Part shown: positions 34,919 to 51,489 of the stretch, piece after piece
Layout: each line of letters starts with the position of its first letter
Numbering within the stretch: position 1 is the stretch's first letter
Notes under the pieces: generated by a model
Told to the model about the DNA's origin: nothing
Databases searched by the model: none
What the model saw: the letters and a program-made list of their open reading frames with translations, nothing else
Program-made: the position numbers and the translations under genes
Assembly: GCA_001247695.2 (NCBI GenBank)
Contig: LGRX02035386.1
Span: 1 to 64,000 of the forward strand
Reading direction: 5' to 3'
DNA length: 64,000 bases
Origin: Cymbomonas tetramitiformis
Taxonomy: Eukaryota; Chlorophyta; Pyramimonadophyceae; Pyramimonadales; Pyramimonadaceae

Positions 34919-37900
34919 ATGAGTAAAGCTGACTTCCAAATGTTCGACACATGGAACCGTACTGAACATGACTTCCCTGCGGACATGTGCCTTCATCAAC
35001 TGTTCGAGGAACAAGTCAAGCTCCGGCCGCAGGCAAGTTGAAGCAGAGCTTCTGGCACTTGCAATAATGCGTTTGAAAGAATCTTGAGCCCTAAGCCCGA
35101 ACCTGAATTTGAATGACTGGACAACAGGAGGTTGCGCTGATTTTTGAGGAGGAAAGGATTACCTTCGAAGAGACACACAACCGCGCGAACGAGTTGGCAG
35201 CTGTGCTCAAGCAGTACGGCGTTGGACCAGACGCCCTGGTCGCGATAAACGTGGAGCGAAATCTTGCTTTGCCGATTGGGCTGCTCGGAATACAGCTGGT
35301 GGGTGTTAACCAAGCACAACGCCTCTAAGCACCTCCTCAATAGCTGTGTCTACTATGTTGAAAGTTTGAAAAAATTAGTATGTCGCTTCTCGTTCTTCAG
35401 TATGTCGGCACGTCGCCTGAGTTGTGTGTGTGTCGCTCGCCGAGGAGCTGAGCGTGGACATCTGTGCATCAGGCCGGGGGTGCATACGTGCCGATCGATC
35501 CTTCGTACCCCTTGGATCGGCAGCAGTATATGCTCGAAGACTCGGACGCCAAAGTTCTCCTAACTCATCGCTCACTCCTTGAGAGTGTCGATTTCATCCC
35601 CACTTCGGTCAAGGTGACTGTTCAAAACACCGCGGCGCCCATCTGTTGTCATCGTTGTCGTACCTACGCCCAAAGCTCATTAGACACGTCCATAACGTCA
35701 AACTTTTGCTACCACGCCACCGAGTCCGTATTGGCGAGCTGGAGAACTGGAGCTAGGCTGCAGGCATTGGCGCGCTGTTGTTTGTGCCAAACGCCACAAG
35801 TGGTTACCAAGGCATTCCTGCCTTCATGGCAGAGCATCAGTGTGAGTCTAAATAAGTGGGAAGTTGAGACACTGGTCGCTGGCGAAGCTGTCGGAAGTCT
35901 GCGAAGTCGTTCCAAATAGCACTGAATCTCAAACTTCGGAGACATAGTCAAACAACTTGCAGCCACGCCGAAGTTCCACTGGAAGCGCTCAACTTGGCGA
36001 TGCCTTTGCCAAATGGCTTTTCCAAGCCGTTCAACTGGAGATGGATCACTGAGAGAGCAAACGGATTACGAATATTTTCGTGTGGGCGGTGCATGGGCTC
36101 CGCGCCTGTGGACGGCTGCGCGTGACTTCCTGAGTTGTGGTGGACGGGTGCCGGTTGGGACGGAAGGTCGTGTGCCTGGACCCTACGAACGGCCGCCCGG
36201 AGCTCGATTCCGAGGCAGCCCCTTACACGGGGCATGCCTGCGAGCCGGCGGGTCCCTCCTCGAAGCCAAGCTCTCTAAACCTCGCCTATGTTATTTATAC
36301 CTCAGGCAAGTGCACACTGGCTCTTCTGCTCACATCCGTCACACGGCCCACCCTTTGAGGAAGGGAGATCGGCTAAAGCATCAGGGCAAGTCACATTGAT
36401 TTCCTTTATCTAACTCGAATAGTCTATTCATGTTCAAGGGTCTAACAGCGCGGAGTCCTCGTTTATTCAGAGCTTCGAGCATTTCCGCGGTTTGCAGCAT
36501 CGTATGATGAAGGGTCGAGAGTGGGTCCGCGGATATCACGGTGGGGCGTTAAGCCATGGGCGGGGTCGACGGTGGCGGGGGGCTATCACGGCTCTGCAGG
36601 TAGCACGGGAAAGCCAAAGGGCGTGATGCTGCAGCACCAGGGTGTTGTGAACCTGCTGTACGCGTTCCAGCTCGAGCTTGGCATCGGGCCTGGCGACACC
36701 TGCATGTGCATCACCACGTTCTGCTTCGATATCTCAGGTCAGCTCTGCTCGCCTGCAACAGGAGCGGACCGTACCCACCCGCCCACACCTGCAGCTGTTT
36801 GCCCATCCAGCTGGTCCACATAATTCAACTCGAGAATATGGCCGCGACAAACGGATTCTGATACATGGTTTGCAGCTTCGCATGGCATCTTCTTTCTACG
36901 ACAAACAGCGCCAATTGGATTGCCTTAAAAGAAGATTGAGCAGCACAGTCAGATGGCGTCATAGCCAGATGTGCCTGTGATGGTGCATGTGCGGGGAGGC
37001 GTCATAGTCACGCATAGTTCTGGTTGCGCATGTGCGGGGAGGCGTTATTGTCGGGGCTAGTGGGTGATGCAGGTGTCAAGCGATGTCATTGTGGAGGGGG
37101 GCGGGGAGATTGGTGGTGGATGTATGGGGACGTGTCATAGACGTGTCATAGGGGATTGTCATGGTGGTGCATGTGTGATAAGGGGTCCTAGTCGAGCGTA
37201 GGGATGGTAGTGCAGGTACAAGGAGGCGTCATGGTCCAGGGTAGTGAGTGATGCATGTGTGAGGAGGCATCTTGGTCAGGCGTTGTGATGGTGGTGCATG
37301 TAGGAGGGGGTGTTATGGTTGGGCGTACTGGGGGTGGTGCATTTACGAGGAGGCTTCATATTCGCACGTACGTATAGTGGTGCATGTACAAGGAGGCTTC
37401 ATGGTCACGCATAGCGGGTAGTGCATGTACGATGACCCTTCAAAGTCACGCGTAGCAATGGTGCATGTACAAGGAGGCTTCATGGTCACACGTAATGGGG
37501 GTGGTGCATGCACGAGGAGGCTTCATAAGGGGGGACATCAAAGAGGGTGCTTTTACGGGGGTTTCGCAGTGCTGGAGATCTTTCTGCCGTTGATCTTTGG
37601 CATGCGCTTGGTGATGGCCACTCGTGAGAACGCCACGAACGGCCCCCAACTAATGCATCTGCTCACGAAGCACGATGTCACTATGCTGCAGGCCACTCCG
37701 ACTACCTGGCAGGTGTGTGCCGCCACATGCCCGCGCCAAGAGAAGTGGTGTAGGTCGCGGCTCCTTGCCGCATGCCAGCCTCGGGCAAGAAGCGCCACAG
37801 TAAAGTGTAAGGATTACAATGGTCTGCATTGAGTGTCTGGCGTTGGGCACGTTCAGGTTTATATGCAAACTTGATTCAATCCCAAGCACCCAAATCCGTG

Positions 37901-51489: not shown

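Follow-up and report, generated by a model that had tools for sequence, protein, structure and literature searches.

A predicted glycine-activating adenylation domain, a carrier and an acyltransferase-3 membrane domain encoded by one gene of the green alga Cymbomonas tetramitiformis

Results

Gene model and domain layout

The window analysed here is a stretch of 64,000 nucleotides from contig LGRX02035386.1 (C25202 in our numbering) of the Cymbomonas tetramitiformis genome (851.7 Mb), and it contains a multi-exon gene on the forward strand (Table 1). The gene encodes CYMTET_54746 (P0001), deposited as a hypothetical protein of 1123 residues, in which an adenylation (A) domain is followed by a phosphopantetheine carrier and a membrane domain of the acyltransferase-3 (AT3) family. 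A first-pass annotation, made from the sequence alone, had proposed this single-chain layout between 34919 and 51489; both ends coincide with the ATG and stop of our 25-exon model, and the Pfam domains, the in-phase exons and the deposited protein all agree with the layout.

The deposited gene was compared as protein, and exon coordinates come from our own model. A hand-made model of 24 exons agreed with CYMTET_54746 residue by residue, apart from a 108-nt exon between carrier and AT3 (exon 15) and the first 24 nt of one exon (at 49206), both of which are present in the deposited protein only. The resulting 25-exon version gives all 1123 residues but one, as our chosen splice yields Ser190 and the deposited protein has Asn190. 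At this site (36305–36600), which lies in the ATP-binding A3 motif, the GC-AG choice gives the Ser and a nearby GT-AG choice would yield the Asn. The donors of the 24 introns are GT (21) or GC (3), and the acceptors are CAG (23) or AAG (1). Gene prediction in the genome paper used BRAKER2 with mapped transcriptome reads (PMC10675990). A second model of the gene, P0002 (EukProt gene1824-2492_t), contains the same three parts with the carrier exon ahead of the A domain and several exons missing; we take its exon order for an assembly or prediction fault. Several introns contain minisatellites, namely 21-bp x8 at 40300–40468 (beginning at the exon 11 donor), 26-bp x24 at 42782–43409, and 22/44-bp arrays at 44328–44759.

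Table 1. Features of the gene for CYMTET_54746 (Pfam spans are residues of the hand-made model).
Feature	Position	Strand	Basis
Whole gene, 25 exons, 24 introns, 1123 residues	34919..51489	+	Gene model and CYMTET_54746 (except residue 190)
Exons 1–11, adenylation domain (AMP-binding 29–385, AMP-binding_C 441–517)	34919..40313	+	Pfam; TIGR01733
Ten specificity residues DILQLGVIWK, residues 232, 233, 236, 275, 298, 300, 321, 329, 330, 517 (exons 5, 6, 7, 8, 11)	36728..40313	+	Motif positions
Exons 12–13, remainder of A10 motif (VDRKA) and linker to carrier	40919..41504	+	Hand-made model
Exon 14, carrier (PP-binding) core; phosphopantetheine Ser615 (codon 42408–42410) in GLDSL	42354..42530	+	Pfam 590–652
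Exon 15, 36-residue linker between carrier and AT3	43474..43581	+	Present in CYMTET_54746
Exons 16–24, AT3 (Acyl_transf_3, 662–1014) membrane domain; Arg700 (44203–44205) and His711 (44236–44238) of R-X10-H	44179..49877	+	Pfam; alignment; structure model; HGSNAT match
Gln774, at second Arg of RxxR in transmembrane helix 3	45351..45353	+	Alignment to relatives
Gln838, at OafB Glu143 position	46628..46630	+	Alignment to relatives
Exon 25, hydrophilic C-terminal tail and stop	51343..51489	+	Hand-made model

All four Pfam matches of the spliced protein exceeded their curated cut-offs: AMP-binding (E 2e-84), AMP-binding_C (E 3e-11), PP-binding (PF00550; E 3e-7, 30.9 bits vs a cut-off of 20.8) and Acyl_transf_3 (PF01757; E 3e-17, 63 bits vs 31). 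Condensation (PF00668), thioesterase, MBOAT and LPLAT domains were not among them. Against NCBIfam, the A domain scored 397.8 bits with the model for amino acid adenylation domains of the nonribosomal peptide synthetase (NRPS) type, TIGR01733 (cut-off 317.4), and fell far under the cut-offs of the DltA models (217.5 bits vs 559.85 for the DltA equivalog). Chance or a reading artefact was ruled out by the 25 in-phase exons, the four domains and the agreeing deposited protein, and bacterial contamination of the gene by the 24 introns with GT/GC-AG ends.

We considered whether annotation had merged two neighbouring genes, one for the A domain and carrier that ends after 42530 and one for an AT3 protein starting at the ATG at 44182. 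The ATG is preceded in the genomic DNA by an in-frame stop a few codons upstream, so that it could in principle start a separate gene, and the carrier and AT3 exons are 1648 nt apart with the 24-copy minisatellite between them. However, a CAG acceptor lies exactly 5' of the start of the AT3 domain in the phase of the carrier exon donor, an additional in-phase exon lies between the two, and the domains are fused in both of two differing gene models. We therefore give little credence to two genes, while noting that fusion is not proven by sequence alone.

Glycine code of the adenylation domain and a paralog in the same genome

The specificity code D-I-L-Q-L-G-V-I-W-K was found at the expected motif positions of the A domain; the 235...517 numbering used for such codes follows the GrsA convention and was placed by motif anchors. 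The first-pass annotation had called the substrate glycine with one deviation, Val for Leu at 322, from the code DILQLGLIWK. To place this residue, 118 protein matches and the query were aligned as 246 A-domain segments, and codes were counted in the 231 that were 420 letters or longer. DILQLGMIWK (35), DILQLGLIWK (19), DILQFGLIWK (15) and DFWNIGMVHK (15) were the commonest codes, and DILQLGVIWK occurred in 12 of 231 segments including the query (that is, in 11 of 230 related segments), which rules out V322 as a weakening of the glycine call. In the literature, the pocket DILQLGVI was predicted to be glycine-activating, in line with a nocamycin structure (PMC5466765), and 93 glycine domains, with DILQLGMIWK among them, were collected in PMC12283262, where positions 299, 322 and 330 are distinctive for a group of 12 codes. 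No match for the string DILQLGLIWK was found in open-licence papers. V322 is therefore a normal variant of the glycine code. With this, the published pocket DILQLGVI and an identical ten-residue code in a paralog of the alga (below), the case for glycine is stronger than was first claimed, and the A domain is predicted, with good support, to activate glycine.

The same ten residues occur in a second gene of this alga. A search of the genome with CYMTET_54746 gave 42 matches (41 of 164 first-look candidates were scored), including a frame at 65938–67503 of contig C3121 (L064) that encodes an A domain and a carrier after the last part of a condensation domain (34.4 bits, cut-off 30.6), with a thioesterase frame following it. 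This A domain is 45% identical to that of CYMTET_54746, which reaches up to 48% identity with other NRPS domains. A FastTree phylogeny built from 232 A-domain segments placed the two algal domains as sisters (support 0.946), nested in NRPS domains of which the named members are bacterial. Given this placement and the identical code, a single bacterial-type glycine A domain seems to have given rise, by duplication within the alga, to both genes, in one of which it precedes AT3. The shared code and sisterhood within one genome could also mean that the A–carrier half of CYMTET_54746 is a stand-alone loading module acting in trans with the condensation-A-carrier-thioesterase gene to make a small glycine peptide. 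That gene sits on another contig and carries its own A domain and carrier, and such a role would leave the AT3 fusion unexplained; we regard it as very improbable.

Near-identical condensation-A-carrier modules (compared by eye) were also seen in long open arrays on contigs C25518, C19639, C4286, C18258, C19638, C1345, C13206, C17501 and C1895 (L065–L078), with a period of ~3.55 kb and open frames of up to 6815 residues. Their code was DAEDLGAVTK in 13 of 14 modules read and DAEGLAVVTK in the other, and the G+C fraction was 0.64–0.65 at four of five measured loci and 0.57 at the fifth. DAEDLGAVTK fits the arginine consensus of PMC12283262, and the arrays, whether of algal or contaminant origin, possibly encode a poly-arginine synthetase.

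Residues kept and changed in the AT3 domain

The structure of the acyltransferase part was predicted, as the first-pass annotation had proposed, and showed the ten-helix TmAT fold common to HGSNAT, the human lysosomal N-acetyltransferase, which was the best structural match at ~14% identity. No Foldseek match of the model reached E ≤ 0.001, and no PDB entry matched the AT3 sequence at E ≤ 10. By sequence, the nearest relatives were bacterial OafA-like AT3 proteins (P0121, E 3e-5; P0122, E 0.35), and identity to the aligned relatives described below was ~16–28%.

Two sets of relatives were used to judge the AT3 motifs. The first comprised 41 open frames (340–470 residues) from 40 loci of bacterial genomes together with P0121 and P0122. 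All 43 had the Arg and His of R-X10-H, the Phe and Gly of FxxxxG, both Arg of RxxR, the Ser and Tyr of SxxxY, and Glu at the position of OafB Glu143, a count that is biased for this Glu as one scan pattern contained it; the Asp of DxxR was Asp in 41 and Glu in two. The second set started from 46 loci (34 found with the PF01757 profile in ten genomes, seven viral loci found by patterns, and five from C. tetramitiformis), 39 of which had a matching frame; after removal of nine repeats of the first set, 30 were left (20 profile-found, seven viral and three from the alga). The viral contigs had been found with a pattern able to hold the Glu and were counted apart. The 20 profile-found proteins all had the second Arg of RxxR; Glu143 was Glu in 19 with one gap, the SxxxY Ser was Ser in 18 and Ala in two, the R-X10-H His was His in 19 and Glu in one, and the DxxR Asp was Asp in 13, Gln in three, Thr in two, Asn in one and Glu in one. 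Second Arg and Glu were present in 7/7 viral proteins, and the second Arg in 3/3 from the alga, one of which had Asp at the Glu143 position, with no residue read there in the other two. Without the algal proteins, the second set had the His in 26 of 27, the second Arg in 27/27, and Ala for the SxxxY Ser in 2/27. Over both sets, non-algal relatives had the second Arg in 70 of 70 and Glu143 in 69 of 70 (one gap). RxxRxxP was absent from six of the seven loci that lacked a matching frame (four prokaryotic, two algal), and the seventh was unreadable; because the Arg is invariant in the 70 relatives and these six lack the motif, the second RxxR Arg is, by these alignments, fixed in the OafA/OafB branch and not across PF01757.

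The algal AT3 retains Arg700 and His711 of R-X10-H in transmembrane helix 1, the Phe and Gly of FxxxxG, the first RxxR Arg of helix 3 (R771), Trp833, and the SxxxY Tyr of helix 9 (Tyr1006). It has Gln774 at the second RxxR Arg, Gln838 at the Glu143 position, Ala1002 at the SxxxY Ser, and Gln at the DxxR Asp. In characterised AT3 proteins, DxxR and RxxR face the cytosol, where CoA (coenzyme A) binds; RxxR is described as essential, one protein can do without the DxxR Asp, and Glu143 is counted among the important residues of the outer face (PMC9833829, PMC12423673). As two residues fixed in the branch have been lost, AT3 activity cannot be assumed.

These losses, and the Ala in helix 9, would fit an AT3 that is catalytically dead and serves as a membrane anchor or scaffold, while the A–carrier pair hands glycine to another enzyme. 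For a mere anchor, however, retention of Arg700, His711, the first helix 3 Arg, Trp833 and Tyr1006 despite such low identity would be surprising, and we consider this explanation unlikely. The AT3 domain might instead use ordinary acyl-CoA, with carrier-bound or released glycine as the acceptor, to make N-acylglycine or lipid-linked glycine: acyl-CoA is the donor of AT3 and HGSNAT proteins (PMC9833829, PMC12423673), and HGSNAT acetylates an amine. By the usual topology, with the AT3 N-terminus in the cytoplasm and the acceptor side extracytosolic (PMC9833829), the A domain and carrier would however lie opposite the acceptor side, and residues for the CoA head are changed in the algal AT3; we rate this as improbable.

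Other features of the locus and window

The end of the exon 25 tail fits a DXXLL sorting motif, which could hint at a Golgi-endosome location, and is short enough to have arisen by chance. Elsewhere in the window were a transposase-like frame at 19637–20779 (reverse strand; DDE_3 above cut-off, Tc3-type helix-turn-helix below cut-off), a DUF7869 frame at 144–908 (reverse strand; E 5e-31), and an RRM frame at 62836–63207 (forward strand), which presumably resembles the cap-binding protein CBP20.

Discussion

The layout and the glycine code of CYMTET_54746 are real and well supported. Among the mechanisms considered, a putative catalytic transfer of glycine by way of the AT3 domain has the best support. 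The cytosolic A domain would form glycyl-AMP and load glycine onto the phosphopantetheine arm at Ser615, as its domains, motifs and code suggest. The tethered carrier would then dock where the ten-helix AT3 domain opens to the cytosol and push its glycyl-phosphopantetheine arm into the pore that AT3 proteins and HGSNAT use for acyl-CoA. There His711 with Arg700 may help to hand glycine over to an acceptor hydroxyl or amine on the opposite (lumenal or outer) side. For one polypeptide to perform this whole chain, from glycine activation through carrier loading to AT3 transfer across the membrane, we see about even chances.

The carrier has the same pantetheine arm as CoA, without the 3',5'-ADP. 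In a carrier-fed AT3 one would expect the CoA-head contacts to be lost and the arm path and the His to be kept, which is the pattern suggested by our alignments. In HGSNAT, acetyl-CoA spans the membrane with its ADP head at the cytosol, and D244 and R247 are among the residues that line the entrance (PMC11357348). Several points weigh against such transfer: the AT3 domain has lost the two branch-fixed residues (Gln774, Gln838), these losses might also reflect a decaying enzyme, and the change of Glu143 to Gln on the outer face is not explained by carrier feeding; it may reflect a new acceptor. Only tentatively, and with more doubt than belief, we propose carrier-fed glycine transfer as a eukaryotic, tRNA-independent glycylation by one protein, in which the covalently bound carrier rather than CoA would feed aminoacyl-phosphopantetheine through a pore of the AT3/HGSNAT type, with a glycan or lipid in the lumen as acceptor; loss of the CoA-head contacts would be a consequence.

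A Dlt-like logic is plausible for the fusion protein. In Dlt systems an amino acid activated by an A domain travels on a phosphopantetheine carrier and reaches an acceptor on the outside by way of a membrane transferase with several spans, and in AlmEFG of Vibrio cholerae a glycine ligase, a carrier and an acyltransferase place glycine on lipid A (PMC3783018, PMC12930378 for AlmEFG; PMC3783018 for Dlt). CYMTET_54746 shares activation, phosphopantetheine carriage and a membrane transferase with Dlt (DltA ligase, DltC carrier, DltB membrane transferase, DltD), but Dlt consists of separate proteins, handles D-alanine and uses an MBOAT protein (DltB), whereas the algal protein is a single chain with an AT3 and an A domain well short of the DltA equivalog. 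The ligase, carrier and acyltransferase parts of AlmEFG likewise have counterparts in the algal protein, but are three proteins there, with AlmG an LPLAT. With AT3 O-acyltransferases (OafA/OafB, OatA) it shares PF01757, R-X10-H, FxxxxG, the first helix 3 Arg and the helix 9 Tyr, but those studied use acyl-CoA and differ in the two Gln positions and the A–carrier partner. HGSNAT has the ten-helix fold, but uses acetyl-CoA and has no A–carrier part. Glycine NRPS modules (such as NcmB of nocamycin and the C3121 gene) share the code, but have condensation or release domains. On the carrier-fed reading, the architecture would be a convergent counterpart of Dlt and AlmEFG, built from an NRPS A–carrier pair and an AT3.

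No other protein joining these parts was found in searches that scored only candidates with exact common five-residue words (7997, 7992 and 7999), so that a distant fused relative could be missed: the numbers that passed were 2 of 7997 and 4 of 7999, and all parts occurred only in P0001 and P0002, both models of this gene. PF01757 was present in two of the 120 listed among 7992 scored A-domain matches, again both this gene. A search for AT3 in the C. tetramitiformis genome gave nine matches; upstream reading covered contig C16300 only, where no A-domain match better than E 0.18, and hence no second fusion, was found in 30 kb beside an AT3 exon. The partners in known AT3 fusions are mostly SGNH and racemase domains, and other, unspecified fusions are said to occur in Eukarya (PMC9833829). 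No description of an A-carrier-AT3 fusion was found in open-licence papers: the excerpts of PMC4792211 give Dlt background without one, and those of PMC7073580 describe algal proteins in which an A domain and a carrier are combined with a further domain, for example a thioesterase, and use the word acyltransferase solely for polyketide synthases.

Speculatively, glycine could be accepted by scale glycans rich in 3-deoxy-D-manno-oct-2-ulosonic acid (Kdo), by a lipid resembling lipid A, or by some other glycan that is exported. Pathways for Kdo, lipid A and peptidoglycan are predicted in this alga, and Kdo is a major component of scales in some scaly green algae (Burns et al., PMC5741210). By analogy with AlmEFG and Dlt (PMC3783018, PMC12930378), Kdo glycans, lipid A and peptidoglycan would be the first suspects for surface glycine, which is speculation.

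A bacterial-style glycine-activating enzyme, a carrier arm and a membrane acyl-transfer part in one gene suggest an undescribed attachment of glycine across a membrane. AT3 proteins are known for acyl transfer from CoA across membranes. If the carrier-fed mechanism is true, this would be, to our knowledge, the first AT3 with a carrier-protein donor. A natural fusion of AT3 to an aminoacyl carrier would then mean that amino acids, and donors bound to a carrier, can enter the pore, and would allow aminoacylation across membranes, still an unsolved problem in Dlt research, to be studied in a single chain. It would also be a sign of glycine decoration, of a kind not yet described, in this bacterivorous green alga with its predicted Kdo and lipid A pathways (PMC5741210).
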